Positions 4,142 to 30,045 of a stretch of DNA of 64,000 nucleotides are shown here, one piece after another. Below the pieces are notes generated by a model. The model did no database searches. It saw only the letters and a list, made by a program, of their open reading frames with translations, and was not told the DNA's origin. Each line of letters opens with the position of its first letter. The first letter of the stretch is position 1. The translations under genes and the position numbers were made by a program. Origin of the DNA: Chloroflexi bacterium 44-23 (lineage in GTDB: Bacteria; Chloroflexota; Anaerolineae; Anaerolineales; Anaerolineaceae); assembly GCA_001899005.1 (NCBI GenBank), contig MKUW01000007.1, positions 1-64,000 on the forward strand. Direction: 5' to 3'.

Positions 4142-5587
4142 ATGAAACGGATATCTTATATTGTAATTATTGCTTTGCTTTTAGTAATTTTGCCGGTTAG
4201 TACGGTCACAGCACAATCTGCGACAAATACTAGTTGGACTTCATCAATTACGTATTATTCTCCAAGTAGCACAGCTGGAGAATTAAATATTAACTATTAT
4301 GATGGAACTACCATATATACAGCTGGACCATTCCCCGTTAGCCCGCATGGTGCAGGGTCCGTAAACATCGGCTCAACTTCAGTTCCTGATGGGTTCGGAG
4401 GTTCCGCTGTCCTTTCGGCTAACGTCCCGATTAATGCAACTTATGTCCAATTTGCAAAAGATTCTCCTACTTCGTATTCTCGTGCATTTTACACTGGCTT
4501 TGATGAAAGCAAGGCGGGATCAAAGTTCTATTTAGCAACAGTAAGAGCAAACGGTATATCAACAACAACATTTGGTGTTCAGAATATTGAATCTTTCGAG
4601 ATTACAGCAACCTTAGATTTCTTCAGTGTTGGAGCTACTACTCCAACATTTTCAGTGTCTGTAGATATTATGCCTAATGCTACTTATATTTCCAGTGTCC
4701 CTGACGTTTCAACTTACCCAGGTGGATCATTTGACGGTTCATTAGTTGTAACTGCAACCAAGAAGGGAGATGTTGCAACGCCAGGCAAAGTAGTAGCATC
4801 AGCCCAAGAGACTCTTGATAACGGCGTAAGTGTTTATGCTTTTGAGGGAGCGAAAGAAGGAGCAACAGAAGTATATTTGCCGTCTGCCATGTGCAACCGG
4901 GGTGGACAAACTTCTTATTTTGCTATTCAAAATACGGGAGATGACACAGCTTCGGTAATAGTAGATTACTATAATACTTCCGGGGTAAAAGTTGGTTCTA
5001 TGCCTTCTACAAATATTGCAAAAGGTGCGAAATTGTCTACAAATCCATGTAACGACAGCCTGTTGGTGGGTGAATTAGGGTCAGCGGTGGTAAAAAGCAC
5101 AAATGGAAAGCCTCTGATTGCTATAGGTAAAGTTGCAAGTGATGCTGGTTTAATCACAGCATTTTCTGGTGAAATAATTGGTTCTACAACGGTTGTAGCT
5201 CCTTATGTAAGATGGGCTGCAGATCAAAATACAAGCTGGAGTGCATATTTGGCGATTATGAATGTTGGCTCAACAAATGCAGAAAATATTATCGCTAATT
5301 ATTATGATGCCTCCGGTACTTTGAGAGCATCTCATGTCCTTGCTAGTGCTTTAACACCACTTGCGCCATTCACAAAAGTAAATACCAATCCTAGCTCAGC
5401 GGGCGCTTTAATTAATAATAGTTTTGGATACACTGTTGATGGAGGGGCAAACGGTGGTGCTGTAGAAATAATAAGTGATCAACCAGTAGTGGCTCTGGTT
5501 CGGTTGACAACGAATCCATTAACAATTCCAAATATTTCAATGTTAGGTGAAGATTATATTGGAATTGCAGTAATGCCTATCCCATAA
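4142..5587 (+). CDS. secreted beta-rich repeat protein of unknown function
   Basis: A 481-residue protein with a clear Sec signal peptide (MKRISYIV, hydrophobic core, cleavage after TVTA-Q). The mature part is rich in Gly, Ser, Thr, Asn and Val, with few charged residues. At least three related ~100-residue units can be seen: residues ~27-110 (SITYYSPSS, NINYYDG), ~245-335 (SYFAIQNTGD, VDYYNTSG, KLSTNPC) and ~355-465 (SAYLAIMNVGS, ANYYDASG, KVNTNPS). Each has an aromatic-rich strand, an x-YYD/N-x-SG turn and a NTNP-like segment, suggesting tandem beta-sandwich domains. Cys251 and Cys302 could form a disulfide. No anchor or catalytic motif was seen. A strong Shine-Dalgarno (GGAGG) precedes ATG 4142. 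It probably acts at the cell surface or outside; the function is unknown. Confidence 0.85.
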   Translation: MKRISYIVIIALLLVILPVSTVTAQSATNTSWTSSITYYSPSSTAGELNINYYDGTTIYTAGPFPVSPHGAGSVNIGSTSVPDGFGGSAVLSANVPINATYVQFAKDSPTSYSRAFYTGFDESKAGSKFYLATVRANGISTTTFGVQNIESFEITATLDFFSVGATTPTFSVSVDIMPNATYISSVPDVSTYPGGSFDGSLVVTATKKGDVATPGKVVASAQETLDNGVSVYAFEGAKEGATEVYLPSAMCNRGGQTSYFAIQNTGDDTASVIVDYYNTSGVKVGSMPSTNIAKGAKLSTNPCNDSLLVGELGSAVVKSTNGKPLIAIGKVASDAGLITAFSGEIIGSTTVVAPYVRWAADQNTSWSAYLAIMNVGSTNAENIIANYYDASGTLRASHVLASALTPLAPFTKVNTNPSSAGALINNSFGYTVDGGANGGAVEIISDQPVVALVRLTTNPLTIPNISMLGEDYIGIAVMPIP

Positions 5588-11395: not shown

Positions 11396-11536
11396 TAAGC
11401 AACTATTTTTGTCACATGGAGATCTAGAAATAAGTATATCATAGCGAATCAAACACAATAATTTGTCAGCAGCATTTAGGCATGGCTCTTGCAAATAGAT
11501 ATGGTAGTTTTTCTGTGCGGTTCTTGGAGTTGTGTG

Positions 11537-12238
11537 ATGAAAAAATTTTTCAGCTTTTTTGTTTTGATTTTTTTAATCGGCTTGGCGTGCTCTTTGGTGC
11601 CTTTGTCTTTGCGTTTGCGTTTGCACAATTCTGGTCCGAAATGGTTCCCTACGTCTGCTGTAATTGAGGGGAATCTTGTAACTGACCCGCAACAAAATTT
11701 CCCGAACCCATTTTACGAAGCTGAATTAGGCGCGAAAGGAGAAATGTTTGCAAAGCTAACGCCTCAGCCATTGCTTACGTCTACAGAAACGACAGCAATG
11801 ACAGAGGATAAGTTTGCGAATTCGCAGCAATTCGCATATTCAATCCAAATGCTTACCCCAATTTTTACGACAAATTTTGTCCACCTGGAGGAAGGCTGCC
11901 ATTGGCTGGGAATGAGCGGCCAGGTTTTCGATATTAACAATCAGCCTGTTGAGGGGATGGTAGTCGCTGTGACGGGGAAACCTGGATATGCAATCCCTGC
12001 TGCGCTGGCATATAGCGGCCTTGCGCCAGAATATGGCCCGGGCGGTTATGAAGTTTTTCTGGGAAATGAAAATTTAGGGGGAGAATACAAAGTTCAGTTG
12101 TTTGATTATGAAGGCACTCCACTATCTGCAGAGGCAAATGTCTCTGTTCCGCCCGGGTGTGATTCCAACCTGATTATCATAAATTTTATTGATTCGTCCA
12201 AGTCAAATTCGATCTTCTTGCCATTAATTAGCCGCTAG
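11537..12238 (+). CDS. secreted protein with FLPLI-type C-terminus
   Basis: A 233-residue protein with an N-terminal hydrophobic segment ([18 protein letters not shown]) that is either a signal peptide or, given LACS, a possible lipobox. The middle contains a carboxypeptidase-regulatory-like stretch ([17 protein letters not shown] ... VAVTGKP ... [13 protein letters not shown]). The protein ends SIFLPLISR, the short hydrophobic tail that I recall on many secreted Chloroflexi proteins. A TTGGAG Shine-Dalgarno fits ATG 11537; a TTG at 11489 is an alternative. The cell-surface location is inferred, and the function is unknown. It is divergent from the GT2 gene. Confidence 0.75.
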
Positions 12239-12415: not shown

Positions 12416-13860
<1,445 letters not shown>

Positions 13861-13877
13861 GTCGGGTGTATCTAAAA

Positions 13878-14729
13878 ATGTCTGTTGAACAGAATCAGCT
13901 CCCTGTTACGTATTTAAAACCAGCCAAAGGATTGGCTGCGCTTAATTTACGTGATTTGTGGGACTACCGCGAACTGATTTATTTTCTCACCTGGCGTGAT
14001 CTGAAAGTTCGTTACAAACAGACATTGTTAGGTTTTTCCTGGGTTATCTTGCAGCCTGTTATTAATATGGTTGTATTTACCATTTTGTTTGGTGAGTTGC
14101 TCTCGGTTCCAACGGGAGGAATTCCATATCCGATCTTTTCATTTGCCGCTTTACTGCCCTGGACTTATTTTGCAGGTTCACTTTCACGCTCATCGACCAC
14201 TCTGGTGGGCAGTGCGAATTTGATCAGCAAAGTTTACTTCCCGCGTATGGTAATTCCCATTTCAGGCGTACTCTCAGGCTTTGTCGATTTTGCAATTGCC
14301 TTCATCATTCTGGTCATTATGATGTTGTTTTATCGCATCATTCCAACCTGGAATCTTCTTCTGCTTCCATTGTTCTTGATTTTGGCAATGCTGACTGCGC
14401 TTGGTTTTGGCCTATGGTTATCGGCGTTAAATGTCCGTTTTCGCGACATTAATCATCTCGTTCCTTTCATTATCGAAATCTGGAAGTATGCCACGCCTGT
14501 TATTTATGGAAGTGCTCTTATTCCAGAAAAATATCGCTTTCTTCTGGGGCTTAATCCATTAACAGGAGTGGTGGAAGGTTTTCGCTGGGCAATATTGGGT
14601 GAAAAATATGTGCAATCTTTTAATCCCGAGCCATTATTCATCATTTCAATTGCAATCACCTTTGTCGTTCTGATCAGCGGAACTTTATTTTTCCGTAATA
14701 CTGAACGTACCTTTGCGGACATTATTTAA
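13878..14729 (+). CDS. ABC-2 type polysaccharide export permease (Wzm-like)
   Basis: A 283-residue permease. The N-terminus has the characteristic amphipathic stretch before the first helix (YFLTWRDLKVRYKQTLLG), then about six membrane helices with the FAALLPWTYFAGSL segment and a final NPLTGVVEGFRW loop typical of TagG/Wzm/RfbA permeases. It pairs with the ATPase directly downstream to move lipid-linked polysaccharide across the membrane. ATG 13878 is preferred because an upstream ATG at 13827 would overlap the previous gene by 34 bases. Confidence 0.92.
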   Translation: MSVEQNQLPVTYLKPAKGLAALNLRDLWDYRELIYFLTWRDLKVRYKQTLLGFSWVILQPVINMVVFTILFGELLSVPTGGIPYPIFSFAALLPWTYFAGSLSRSSTTLVGSANLISKVYFPRMVIPISGVLSGFVDFAIAFIILVIMMLFYRIIPTWNLLLLPLFLILAMLTALGFGLWLSALNVRFRDINHLVPFIIEIWKYATPVIYGSALIPEKYRFLLGLNPLTGVVEGFRWAILGEKYVQSFNPEPLFIISIAITFVVLISGTLFFRNTERTFADII

Positions 14730-14730
14730 G

Positions 14731-15990
14731 ATGAATGATATAGCGATCCACGTAGAGAATATTTCCAAAAAGTATATTATTGGTGCATTACAGGAACGCC
14801 ATGATACGTTGCGTGATCTGATAGTCTCAGCGTTTCGTCAACCCTTTGCACGCAAAAAAAACCAGGAAAATCGTGTTCTGTGGGCGTTGCGCGATATCAG
14901 TTTTGACATCCATCGCGGCTCTGTGGTTGGAATCGTTGGCAGAAATGGCGCCGGAAAGAGCACGCTATTAAAAGTACTTTCTCGTGTAACTGAACCAACC
15001 AGTGGGGTCGGTGAAATTCGAGGGCGGGTCGGGTCACTTCTGGAAGTTGGCACAGGTTTCCACCCGGAATTAACCGGGCGCGAGAACATTTTTTTGAATG
15101 GTGCCATTCTGGGAATGAAACGAACTGAGATTGAGAAAAAGTTTGATGAGATTGTGGAATTCTCGGAAGTTACCAGGTTCATCGATACACCCGTTAAACG
15201 TTATTCGAGCGGCATGTACCTGCGTTTGGCTTTTGCCGTGGCAGCTCATCTCGAACCGGATATTCTGGTAGTTGATGAGGTGCTGGCTGTCGGCGACGCT
15301 GAATTTCAGCGTAAATGCCTTGGTAAGATGAGCGATGTTGCAGAACAGGGCCGCACAGTTTTGTTTGTTTCCCATAACATGTCTGCCATTTTGAGATTAA
15401 CAGAAGAGACATTAGTACTTGAAAAAGGTAAAGTGATTATGCGCGCGCCTTCACCGGAGGCAGTTGATTTCTATCTTTCCTCTGGTTTCGCTGAAACCGG
15501 TGAACGCTATTGGCAGGGGGATGAAATTCCAGCTTCGGCAGCTCCATTTCGCCCACTTGCGCTGCGGATTAGAAATGGGCAGGGCCTTGTGATGGATACA
15601 GTTCGCTCGGTTGAAGATATGAGTATTGAATTTGAATACCAGCTCTTTGCACCGATTAGTGGTTTGCGGATTGGGTTTTACTTGATGAGTACCCGTGGCG
15701 AATTTGTTTTCACAACTTTTGACACCGATGAACCTGCGTTATTTGAAAAACTCACGCTCAGACCAGCCGGCCGGTATATCAGCCGCTGTAAGATTCCTGC
15801 CGATACCTTCAATGAAGGCCGTTTTGTGGTTGGAATAAATGCCAGCTCGTATCGTATTCAGCGTTACTTTCAGGATGAACGCGCATTGACATTTAATGTT
15901 GACCCGGCTGGTGCACCCGGAATGCAATGGCCGGAACAGAGATTGGGACCCATTCGTCCCAGATTGGATTGGCAAATTGAGGTCATATGA
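14731..15990 (+). CDS. polysaccharide ABC transporter ATPase with carbohydrate-binding tail (Wzt-like)
   Basis: A 419-residue protein. Residues 1-~245 are the ATPase: Walker A GRNGAGKS (70-77), the LTGREN loop, signature YSSGM (158-162), Walker B ILVVDE (178-183) and a switch His in VSHNMS. Residues ~270-419 form a beta-rich extra domain like the C-terminal domain of Wzt proteins, which recognises the end of the finished glycan before export. It starts one base after the permease stop, so the two form a unit. The presence of the tail suggests export of a chain with a specific terminal modification, for example methyl or acidic sugar. Confidence 0.92.
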   Translation: MNDIAIHVENISKKYIIGALQERHDTLRDLIVSAFRQPFARKKNQENRVLWALRDISFDIHRGSVVGIVGRNGAGKSTLLKVLSRVTEPTSGVGEIRGRVGSLLEVGTGFHPELTGRENIFLNGAILGMKRTEIEKKFDEIVEFSEVTRFIDTPVKRYSSGMYLRLAFAVAAHLEPDILVVDEVLAVGDAEFQRKCLGKMSDVAEQGRTVLFVSHNMSAILRLTEETLVLEKGKVIMRAPSPEAVDFYLSSGFAETGERYWQGDEIPASAAPFRPLALRIRNGQGLVMDTVRSVEDMSIEFEYQLFAPISGLRIGFYLMSTRGEFVFTTFDTDEPALFEKLTLRPAGRYISRCKIPADTFNEGRFVVGINASSYRIQRYFQDERALTFNVDPAGAPGMQWPEQRLGPIRPRLDWQIEVI

Positions 15991-20458: not shown

Positions 20459-20507
20459 CATTTATAAATTGTTAGAATTTAATGAAGAAATGAAAGGAAG
20501 GAAAATA

Positions 20508-21575
20508 ATGGAAATTAAAATTGGGAAACATACCATCAGCCCTGACCATCCGACCTATTTCATCGCAGATATTGCAGCCAACCACGACGGCAGTCTGGAG
20601 CGGGCCAAATCATTAATCCGTCTGGCAAAGAATGCCGGAGCAGATGCTGCCAAATTTCAAAACTTTCAAGCTCCCAAAATCGTGTCTGAGTACGGATTTA
20701 TGCGGATGGGTGAGCAGCAATCGCACCAGTCACAATGGAAAAAATCCGTAACGGAAGTTTATCAAGAAGCGACTGTGCCCTTTGATTGGACGCCTGTTTT
20801 GAAGGAAACTTGCCAGCAAGTTGGAATTGATTATTTCTCTTCCCCCTATGACTTTGAATCAATTGACTATCTAGAGCCGTTTATGCCCGCTTATAAGGTT
20901 GGCTCTGGTGAAATTGATTGGCTGGAAGCCCTGGAACGAATGGCTTCCAAAGGTAAGCCGATTTTCCTGGCTACCGGTGCTTCCACAATTGGTGAAGTTC
21001 AGAAGGCTGTCCACACAATTCTGAAGATCAATCGTCAATTGGTTTTGATGCAATGCAATACGAATTACACAGGCAGCCTGGAAAACCTGCGTTATGTCAA
21101 TTTGAATGTTTTGAAGACTTATGCAACCATGTTCCCTGATTTGATTTTAGGGCTTTCGGATCATACACCCGGGCATGCAACTGTCCTGGGAGCGGTGGCA
21201 CTGGGTGCACGCGTGGTTGAGAAACATTTTACTGATGATACCACCCGCGAAGGTCCAGACCATCCCTTCGCGATGGATCCGGATTCGTGGTGGAATATGG
21301 TCAAGAAAACACGCCAATTGGAAGCAGCCTTAGGATCACCTGATAAAGTCGTTGCTGAAAATGAAAAAGAGACTGTCATAATCCAGCGACGTTGTTTAAG
21401 GGCAGCCAGAGATTTGCAGGCTGGTGAAATTCTCACACGGGCAATGATCGACGTATTACGCCCGGCCACTGTGGGTGCAATCAAACCGGATGAGATCGCT
21501 CAAGTGATTGGCACGCAAGTGTTAGAAGATTTACCAAAAGGTAAAGAGATTCGTTGGACGGATCTCGGAAAATAA
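20508..21575 (+). CDS. nonulosonic acid synthase with SAF domain (NeuB/PseI/LegI-like)
   Basis: A 355-residue enzyme. Residues ~15-265 form the NeuB TIM barrel: FIADIAANHDGSLERAK, AAKFQNF, KVGSGEIDW, ATGASTIGE and GLSDHTPG. Residues ~290-355 are a SAF (antifreeze-like) domain (RCLRAARDLQAGEILT). It condenses phosphoenolpyruvate with a six-carbon amino sugar (or its analogue) to a nine-carbon acidic sugar. A strong Shine-Dalgarno (GGAAGG) supports ATG 20508. Another NeuB homologue without SAF is encoded at 30061, so the locus probably makes two different acids. The upstream PseB-like gene favours pseudaminate-type substrate but aminotransferase and acetyltransferase genes are missing nearby. 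Confidence 0.88.
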   Translation: MEIKIGKHTISPDHPTYFIADIAANHDGSLERAKSLIRLAKNAGADAAKFQNFQAPKIVSEYGFMRMGEQQSHQSQWKKSVTEVYQEATVPFDWTPVLKETCQQVGIDYFSSPYDFESIDYLEPFMPAYKVGSGEIDWLEALERMASKGKPIFLATGASTIGEVQKAVHTILKINRQLVLMQCNTNYTGSLENLRYVNLNVLKTYATMFPDLILGLSDHTPGHATVLGAVALGARVVEKHFTDDTTREGPDHPFAMDPDSWWNMVKKTRQLEAALGSPDKVVAENEKETVIIQRRCLRAARDLQAGEILTRAMIDVLRPATVGAIKPDEIAQVIGTQVLEDLPKGKEIRWTDLGK

Positions 21576-27994: not shown

Positions 27995-28819
27995 ATGACT
28001 GAAACAGTTTTTGAGAAATTCAATATGAAAGAAAAATGTGCGATTATAACCGGTGGCGCAGGCTTATTGGGCAGGCAATTTGCCCGCACCCTGGCGGAAG
28101 CTGGCGCTGCAGTTGTGGTGGCAGATGTTATGTCCGAGCGAGCTCAATCGGTCGCTGACGAACTGGTTTCAAAAGGCTACCAGGCTACTGCTGTGCAAGT
28201 GGATGTGACCAATGCTCAATCGGTCCAGGCCATGGTTGCGCTAACTTTGCAACATTATAAGCGCTTGGATGTGTTGGTTAACAGCGCTGCAATGGATCCA
28301 AAATTTGATGATGAACATGCCGGTCAACATACAAACCGCTTTGAAGATTACCCGGTAGAGGCTTTTCGTTCAGCCCTGGATGTTAACCTAACCGGCATGT
28401 TTCTCTGCTCTCAGGCTGCCGTGGCGCCGATGATCGAACAGAACTACGGTTCAATCATCAACATTTGCTCTACATACGGTCTGACAGGCCCGGATCAGCG
28501 GTTATATGAACGCGATGGCCAACCAAAACAGTACAAGCCTGTCTTTTACTCGGTGACCAAAGCCGGAGTGCTTGGATTAACCCGCTATCTGGCGACCTAT
28601 TACGCCGGCACAAGAATTCGCACCAATGCGCTCACACCTGGCGGTGTTTTTAACCAACATGATGATGTTTTTGTAGAAAAATATTCAGCACGAACTGTGC
28701 TGGGACGAATGGCCAATCAAGATGAGATGAATGGGGCTATCCTTTTCCTGGCATCCGATGCCTCCTCTTATATGACTGGTTCAAATCTGGTTGTAGATGG
28801 TGGGTGGACAGCATGGTAA
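27995..28819 (+). CDS. classical SDR oxidoreductase, PtmA-like
   Basis: A 274-residue short-chain dehydrogenase. TGGAGLLG binds the cofactor, VNSAAMD is the NNAG-like motif, ICSTYGLTG holds the catalytic Ser and YSVTKAG the Tyr/Lys pair; DGGWTAW ends the protein. The position between Gfo/Idh/MocA and NeuA-like genes recalls PtmA, which acts early in the legionaminic acid route of Campylobacter. AAGGAAA precedes ATG 27995; an upstream TTG (27977) is less likely. It overlaps the next gene by seven bases. Confidence 0.87.
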   Translation: MTETVFEKFNMKEKCAIITGGAGLLGRQFARTLAEAGAAVVVADVMSERAQSVADELVSKGYQATAVQVDVTNAQSVQAMVALTLQHYKRLDVLVNSAAMDPKFDDEHAGQHTNRFEDYPVEAFRSALDVNLTGMFLCSQAAVAPMIEQNYGSIINICSTYGLTGPDQRLYERDGQPKQYKPVFYSVTKAGVLGLTRYLATYYAGTRIRTNALTPGGVFNQHDDVFVEKYSARTVLGRMANQDEMNGAILFLASDASSYMTGSNLVVDGGWTAW

Positions 28820-30045
28820 GCCCAAAATTAGAGGTTTTGGCGATCATCCCGGCGCGTGGCGGCTCAAAGGGCATTCCCCGTAAAAATATCCGTGATTTTG
28901 CCGGTTATCCACTGATTGCGTACAGTATCATGGCTGCACTTACTTCCCGCTATGTCACGCGCGCAATTGTTTCAACCGATGACCAGGAAATTGCAGAGGT
29001 CGCACGCCAATTGGGAGCGGAAGTTCCCTTCCTTCGGCCGGATTCCATTGCTGAAGACCTGACACAAGATTTGCCGGTCTTTCAACATGCCTTGCAGACA
29101 CTGTATGAAACCGAAGGCTACCAACCGGAACTGATCATTCAATTGCGCCCAACTTCTCCGATCCGACCGGTAGGTCTGGTCGATGAGGCTGTTGAGACTC
29201 TGCTAAACCACCCTGACGCTGATTCCGTTCGCGGTGTGGTGCCTTCAGGCCAAAATCCTTATAAAATGTGGAAGGTGGATCCCGAAAGTGGATATCTCAA
29301 GGGGCTGATCCCAGTCAATGGACTGGCTGAACCATACAATGCTCCCCGCCAGAGTTTGCCGGAAACTTTCTGGCAGACGGGTCATATTGATGTGATCCGT
29401 ACGGAAGTTATTCTGTATAAAAACTCGATGTCGGGAAATAGGATTGTGCCAGTCTTCATAAGCCCGGACTATACCGTTGACCTTGATCGACCTGCTGATT
29501 GGCCAAAGGCTGAATGGCTGGTGTGGAATGCAGGTCTGGATATGGTAACGCCTGGTAATCACCGCCGCCCTCTGCCTGACCCGGTGAAATTGGTTGTATT
29601 CGATTTTGATGGGGTCATGACCGATAACCGTGTCTTTATCAACGAGCAAGGGTTGGAGAGTGTGGCCGCAAATCGCGGTGACGGGATGGGCATCGGCTTA
29701 TTGAAAAAAGCTGGCGTCGCAGCGCTAATTTTATCGAAAGAGGTTAATCCTGTAGTCAGTGCACGCAGTCAGAAATTGGCCATCCCTTGTATTCAAGCGG
29801 TGGACGATAAGCCATTAGTATTGAAAAAATATATGAAAGAAAATGGTTTTGATCCGCAGCAAGTCATCTTTGTAGGCAATGACATTAATGATGTTCCTTG
29901 TTTTCCTATCGTGGGCTGTGCGTTGGCAGTAGCCGATTCCCACCCAAGTGCCTTGCGCCAGGCTGACATCATTTTGCAGAACAAAGGCGGTTACGGTGCT
30001 GTTCGAGAAATATGTGACCGAATTCTGAGTGATCTGAGAAAGTAG
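28813..30045 (+). CDS. NeuA-type CMP-acylneuraminate synthetase fused to a KdsC-like HAD phosphatase
   Basis: A 410-residue fusion. Residues ~5-235 are the cytidylyltransferase: IIPARGGSKGIPRKN, STDDQEIA, LRPTSPIR and DYTVDLDRPADW. Residues ~255-410 are a HAD domain of the 8-/9-phosphate phosphatase type: VVFDFDGVMT with nucleophile Asp264 and Asp266, ILSKE as the Ser/Lys region, and VGNDINDVPC as the Mg-binding loop. The same domain order occurs in animal CMAS. In bacteria the fusion suggests that the synthase makes a phosphorylated acid (as in the KDN-9-P or Neu5Ac-9-P route), which is dephosphorylated and then activated by one polypeptide. Catalytic residues of both halves look intact. Confidence 0.9.
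   Translation: MVSPKLEVLAIIPARGGSKGIPRKNIRDFAGYPLIAYSIMAALTSRYVTRAIVSTDDQEIAEVARQLGAEVPFLRPDSIAEDLTQDLPVFQHALQTLYETEGYQPELIIQLRPTSPIRPVGLVDEAVETLLNHPDADSVRGVVPSGQNPYKMWKVDPESGYLKGLIPVNGLAEPYNAPRQSLPETFWQTGHIDVIRTEVILYKNSMSGNRIVPVFISPDYTVDLDRPADWPKAEWLVWNAGLDMVTPGNHRRPLPDPVKLVVFDFDGVMTDNRVFINEQGLESVAANRGDGMGIGLLKKAGVAALILSKEVNPVVSARSQKLAIPCIQAVDDKPLVLKKYMKENGFDPQQVIFVGNDINDVPCFPIVGCALAVADSHPSALRQADIILQNKGGYGAVREICDRILSDLRK

Follow-up and report, generated by a model that had tools for sequence, protein, structure and literature searches.

Does the short tail at the C-terminus of an exported Chloroflexota protein act as a sorting tag and, if so, which enzyme could read it? The question is raised by a gene of the window (the whole stretch of 64,000 nucleotides that was analysed) whose product ends in IFLPLISR. 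An earlier note had described such tails as common at the ends of exported Chloroflexi proteins, and had proposed an undescribed sorting or anchoring tag. Members of the Chloroflexota abound in sludge, sediments and microbial mats; the means by which they retain proteins at their surface are poorly known.

The window gene and its product

The gene (11537..12238, forward strand) is an intact open reading frame (ORF) of 233 codons; an alternative upstream start, TTG at 11489, is also open. The protein begins with a hydrophobic segment, predicted from its sequence to be a signal peptide or possibly a lipoprotein signal (residues 1–18, 11537..11590). A cysteine in this segment would fit a lipoprotein, although GLAC, with G at −3, makes a poor lipobox. 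Alignment of homologues, an AlphaFold model and Foldseek delimit a conserved beta-sandwich domain at approximately residues 120–219 (11894..12193). It is followed by a short linker (residues 220–225, 12194..12211) that lies past the end of most homologues, by the tag IFLPLISR (residues 226–233, 12212..12235) and by the stop codon TAG (12236..12238), relative to which the position of the tag is fixed, with the proline five residues from the end. The AlphaFold model (mean pLDDT 77, 25 sequences) consists of the beta-sandwich and an unordered tail, and pLDDT is below 50 at residues 228–233.

No domain was found in a Pfam search of the protein. Its Foldseek matches, to intradiol dioxygenases, pilins and carboxypeptidases N/M/D, are weak, and carboxypeptidases N and M align at 21–22% identity; the domain had been called carboxypeptidase-like, which was reasonable but, at such scores and identities, is a guess only, and the family is not demonstrated. 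Relatives of the protein were found in 40 of the 41 genomes searched, its own genome included, and a scan of genome contigs with the window protein as query found no relative. Among 25 aligned homologues, five carry the tail (those of the window, L124, L126, L129 and L131), four have a decayed form of it, and 16 stop 1–5 residues after the domain. Since most homologues end without the tail, it is a removable add-on.

The gene is flanked by a glycosyltransferase gene on the opposite strand and by a regulator gene ahead of a surface-polysaccharide locus. This locus contains an ABC-2/Wzt-like exporter (13827–15990), a NeuB-family synthase (20466–21575) and a fusion of a cytidylyltransferase with a HAD hydrolase (28804–30045), and a nonulosonic-acid surface glycan is therefore possible in this Chloroflexota genome. 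Elsewhere in the window, the gene at 4142–5587 encodes an exported-type protein of 481 residues without any Pfam match.

A tail fixed at the exact C-terminus of exported proteins

The tail has a constant form of eight residues, approximately [VIL]-[YF]-L-P-L-[VI]-x-[KR]-stop, and the window protein has [YF]-L-P in the corresponding place, as IFLPLISR-stop at the extreme C-terminus behind an N-terminal hydrophobic signal. Genomes were searched with [FY]-L-P-L-[IV]-x-[KR]-stop in the form of a degenerate DNA pattern, which is slightly looser: TRR also admits TGG, so that a few matches are not stops, and a few such endings are included in the counts for the relatives and for the phylum (without them, G091 drops from three to two). 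The window's own genome has nine matches, against three for the reversed control pattern. Six of the nine sit at the ends of long frames that look exported as far as they are visible (three extend beyond the locus, with their N-termini outside the view), one lies in a frame of 99 residues without a signal, and two are in very short frames. Similarly, the 41 relatives have 122 matches against 19 for the reversed control (sum of rows). A chance origin of the tail was rejected on these controls and on the unrelated architectures of the proteins that carry it. The 99-residue frame (L009 1501–1524) has a cytoplasmic-like start, presumably DNA-methylase-like, and ends in KTYLPLVVR; it is perhaps a fusion or a remnant.

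Exported and other ORFs were compared under a strict C-terminal rule. The tail ended 9 of 65 exported ORFs and 0 of 263 others in G016, 2 of 60 and 0 of 277 on contig C28 of the own genome, and 1 of 6 and 0 of 48 in the window; it was absent in the tag-poor relative G017 (0/54 and 0/285) and in the sample from G204 (0/46 and 0/289). That G204 contig holds one variant tail, VFIPLLLKQ, and the 11 genome-wide matches of G204 lie off this stretch. Pooling the own, G016 and G204 contigs, which were picked independently of the tag, places the tail on 11 of 171 signal-peptide ORFs versus 0 of 829 others (p = 2.8e-9). Among all ORFs studied, 56 strict motifs were counted: 53 at the exact C-terminus, one three residues before it and two internal. 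Because the C-terminal pattern had served to select 40 neighbourhoods of this set, the internal counts alone are free of bias: both internal motifs are in exported proteins, with none in 422,489 residues of other ORFs. Four of the 53 C-terminal matches are in ORFs that a simple rule does not call exported, and in three of these the start or the signal may have been misjudged. Proline stands at −5 in 64 of 65 tagged signal-peptide or open ORFs, most of them fetched with a pattern that fixes it there, and in 11 of 12 tail matches of signal-peptide proteins on contigs that were not tag-selected.

The statement that such tails are common on exported Chloroflexi proteins is thus borne out, by 11/171 versus 0/829, for a subset of the phylum. 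Equal frequency in cytoplasmic proteins, or a lack of enrichment at the exact C-terminus, would have spoken against the earlier note; instead, non-exported ORFs do not carry the tail as often as exported ones, and it is tied to the exact C-terminus.

The two internal copies of the box occur in exported proteins of L083 and L108. One, QVFLPLIRRPYPH, is 45 residues from the protein start and the other, KVYLPLILRIYP, is at residue 145, as if the tag had been read through or were used near the N-terminus too.

The constant distance to the stop codon could also reflect an action of the C-terminal codons in translation, with a pausing peptide at termination that aids co-translational export. We consider this extremely unlikely: the stops are ordinary (TAA/TAG/TGA 26/20/13 in 59 tagged genes versus 95/45/52 in 192 untagged ones), and the tag is absent from most exported proteins of the same genomes.

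A stricter pattern, run over the GTDB collection, gave at least 120 loci. Among the matches listed, assigned by record title, 103 are in Chloroflexota and 17 are from other or unassigned genomes. One of these 17 ends an exported frame, in a metagenome-assembled genome (MAG) of Elioraea, and another ends a frame of 575 residues that has no signal; the others are at the ends of short frames, have no start or are not stops. The last 30 residues of the Elioraea match are identical to those of a locus in a Roseiflexus MAG (L226 and L267), and binning contamination is therefore probable. Carriers among the matches listed belong to Chloroflexales, Herpetosiphonaceae, Anaerolineaceae, Caldilineaceae, Ardenticatenaceae and Thermoflexales. 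The restriction to Chloroflexota accordingly held (103 of at least 120 loci, among those listed) for a subset of the phylum. Even inside the window's taxonomic family, the tag is patchy, with 17 matches in G005, 14 in G016 and none in a pattern search of G013–G015, G017, G018, G022 and G024.

The motif is already catalogued in NCBIfam, so that the word "undescribed" was wrong in this respect. Release 20 contains NF050076 (sort_motif_YLP) and NF053834 (ultrashort_CTERM), both called "YLP-box putative sorting motif-containing protein"; they span 11 and 10 positions, and both profiles finish on the last residue of the protein. A tagged protein of L113 (8819–9757) passes both models (16.1 against a cut-off of 15, and 14.5 against 10), and one of L107 passes NF053834 (12.6 against 10). 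For the window protein, no NCBIfam family was found at E ≤ 10 and neither YLP-box model gave a score; its tail has the same form as the YLP-box, yet it is not a member by NF050076 or NF053834. In the library output, these entries give the name of the motif and no enzyme, and a full-text search of the open-licence text of PubMed Central found no paper describing the motif and no use of "YLP-box". What is new here is the candidate partner, a PorU-like C25 protease; the motif itself was already in the database.

PorU-like C25 proteases in tag-bearing genomes

The tag is confined to exported-type proteins of unrelated architecture. Together, 49 tagged proteins match 103 Pfam families, none of which occurs in more than five of the 49; they include Ig and cadherin-like repeats, beta-helices, lectin-like domains, RCC1 and nucleases. 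The tag is also an add-on to otherwise untagged families, as in that of the window protein, and an inherited domain was rejected on both grounds. A DNA-level element was rejected as well: there are 57 distinct nucleotide strings among 58 tags, with all four proline codons in use, and this diversity indicates that the tag is under selection as protein. Tagged proteins are large, with a median of 742 residues versus 331 for untagged exported ones. A lipobox is found in 3 of 59 tagged versus 43 of 192 untagged signal-peptide proteins (p = 0.0018), and a hydrophobic segment in the last 45 residues is not commoner among the tagged ones (3/59 versus 12/192). The fixed place of the tag suggests that the free C-terminus forms part of the signal. 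One tagged protein (L118 9759–11075) has a lipoprotein-type signal and aligns along its entire length with NCBIfam NF053835, "PDIAV motif-containing lipoprotein"; the tag and a lipid anchor can therefore coexist.

Co-occurrence of the tag with secreted PorU-like C25 proteases (PF01364) is near-perfect. Above 130 bits, a threshold picked after the scores were seen, C25 is present in 22 of 22 phylum genomes with at least three tag matches versus 12 of 229 others (p = 2.6e-23). Of the 46 genomes with any tag match, 33 have such a C25, against 1 of the 205 that have no match. The remaining 13 of the 46 have only one or two tag matches apiece. In G242, the single no-tag genome with a strong C25, the frame adjoining the C25 gene ends in the variant YFIPLIGR. 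Among the 41 relatives, the corresponding fractions are 14/15 versus 2/26, and 7/8 versus 2/26 when the window's genus is counted once (p = 5e-5), which controls partly for phylogeny. With any match at E ≤ 0.001 accepted, they become 14/15 versus 13/26 in the relatives and 34/46 versus 6/205 in the phylum.

There are also exceptions. G012, which is 87% complete, has three tag matches and no C25, and G014 has C25 and no tag match. In the tag-rich G010, the sole strong C25 lacks both catalytic residues. G005, with its 17 matches, has only a divergent C25 type above 130 bits, so that no single orthologue is universal.

Several lines of evidence relate these proteins to PorU, which itself belongs to C25, bears a C-terminal signal and removes a different C-terminal tag in another phylum, Bacteroidota. 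The type IX sortase PorU model NF033707 is the best NCBIfam match for all 13 C25 proteins scanned, with scores from 67 bits (G010) to 316.6 bits (own copy, G000:C7), all below the NCBI cut-off of 420 bits. In the PDB, PorU (6za2) is the sole match for the G156 protein, and the own copy matches 6za2 first and gingipains next. The His/Cys catalytic dyad is intact in 41 of 42 C25 domains, G010 being the exception. In the tree, 20 C25 domains from families f35, f45 and f71 group in a single clade (support 100/98); a divergent clade unites those of G010, G005 and one own paralogue, and the lipoprotein-type paralogues of the own genome and G004 make up a further separate one.

Our preferred reading, for which we put the case close to even, is that the tail is a short C-terminal sorting tag on Sec-exported proteins that is perhaps cut by a PorU-like C25 protease. 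After export, the free C-terminus would be recognised on the outer face of the membrane, and the protease would use its His/Cys dyad to cut at or just before the YLP-box. Cleavage would then either release the mature protein or join its new C-terminus to an amine or glycan of the envelope, as is done by PorU, and tagged proteins would thereby stay at the surface with neither a lipid anchor nor a transmembrane helix.

The tag, intact or decayed, is also found at the end of most C25 proteins, although not of the lipoprotein-type ones. C25 proteins may therefore be mere cargo, a favoured class among the tagged surface proteins as gingipains are in type IX secretion, with another receptor or enzyme reading the YLP-box. 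In support of this, G010 is tagged while its C25 is dead, and G005 has only the divergent type. However, Big_9, the commonest cargo domain tested, co-occurs with the tag far less sharply than C25 does (20/22 versus 77/229), and PorU shows that a C25 protein with a C-terminal signal may still be the enzyme. We judge the cargo explanation rather unlikely. The co-occurrence makes C25 a candidate for the tag enzyme, and doubt about this role comes from the cargo alternative, the dead G010 copy, the lack of C25 in G012 and the absence of a universal orthologue.

Gene neighbourhoods bear on the same point. Six strictly tagged non-C25 genes were found near C25 genes, in 5 of 20 fetched regions, where about three were expected by a rough estimate; this excess is suggestive only. 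Clustering of the ORFs in 40 neighbourhoods of tagged genes found no recurrent enzyme family, and the families present were common ones (ABC transporters, response regulators) along with the tagged families. The sorting tag of the earlier note gains support from its place on exported proteins and at their exact end, and the co-occurring enzyme for which it had advised a search has a strong candidate in the PorU-like C25 family; sorting or anchoring is a putative function of the tag, and processing a possible role of C25.

An enzyme may also be superfluous if the tail docks passively on the membrane surface, an S-layer or a wall polymer. The tail is indeed short, hydrophobic, basic at its end and unordered in the AlphaFold model, the lipobox is rarer in tagged proteins, and two motif copies are internal to exported proteins. 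Nevertheless, we regard passive docking as improbable, as the strict place relative to the stop suggests that a free C-terminus is recognised, and passive docking would require no protease family to accompany the tag.

As to other neighbours of C25 genes, G258 and G156 have a DUF11 protein that bears an LPXTG-like anchor, and G034 has a DUF11 protein. On contig C12 of the own genome (L322 3454–10697), an untagged PorU-like C25 of the lipoprotein type is clustered with a DUF4012 protein, two YLP-tagged proteins and two one-helix proteins of 283 and 176 residues. L328 has a similar cluster without the tagged pair.

Relation to known sorting systems

The type IX system resembles the YLP-box system in having a C-terminal signal on exported surface proteins, and the C25 proteins found here are best matched by the PorU model and 6za2. 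The two differ in that the type IX signal is a folded domain whereas the YLP-box has eight residues, and in that the C25 scores are under the PorU cut-off. An outer membrane and its translocon were checked through Omp85 alone. Omp85 was found in 0 of 41 relatives (controls 7/14); there is therefore no sign of an outer membrane, and an outer-membrane beta-signal was rejected on this count. In type IX secretion, cargo is cleaved, and its new C-terminus is modified and attached in a sortase-like reaction (PMC4560394). The role proposed here for C25 is drawn by analogy with this reaction.

It is possible, although we lean against it, that PorU-type sorting operates in Chloroflexota without type IX secretion or an outer membrane, with a secreted PorU-like C25 cysteine transpeptidase that cuts the YLP-box and joins the protein to a glycan or amine of the envelope. 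If so, this sorting class would differ both from sortases and from the intramembrane enzymes exosortase, rhombosortase and myxosortase, and it would suggest that PorU-type sorting predates type IX secretion or is the more mobile of the two. Should C25 prove to be the enzyme, such sorting operates outside Bacteroidota and needs no outer membrane. More generally, a named partner family makes an orphan database motif a testable system. In tag-rich genomes, many large surface proteins bear the tag, and their export can be predicted from the sequence alone.

The PEP-CTERM, GlyGly-CTERM and MYXO-CTERM tags, of exosortase, rhombosortase and myxosortase respectively, are likewise C-terminal signals on many unrelated exported proteins per genome. 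They are tripartite, with a motif, a transmembrane helix and a basic cluster (PMC11980579), unlike the YLP-box, which has no helix. Of 41 genomes, only the tag-poor G033 has an exosortase (PF09721) that scores above cut-off, and exosortase was rejected as the tag enzyme.

With the sortase/LPXTG system, the YLP-box shares a C-terminal signal, an LP motif and basic residues. In LPXTG proteins, however, a hydrophobic helix and then a basic cluster come after the motif, whereas the YLP-box tail ends with the motif and has no transmembrane helix. A classical sortase (PF04203) that treats the tag as a degenerate LPXTG signal is very improbable in our view, despite the LP within the tag and the presence of sortases in 176 of 251 phylum genomes. 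The tag-rich G016 (97% complete, nine contigs) has no PF04203 candidate, which contradicts this explanation unless its assembly misses a sortase, while the tag-poor G033 and G017 have 15 and five; moreover, just 3 of 59 tagged proteins have a hydrophobic segment near the end. In some genomes, a classical sortase gene does lie within about 1 kb of a C25 gene, namely in G148, G117, G141, G073, G082, G109 and G037 (L325 5218–9012).
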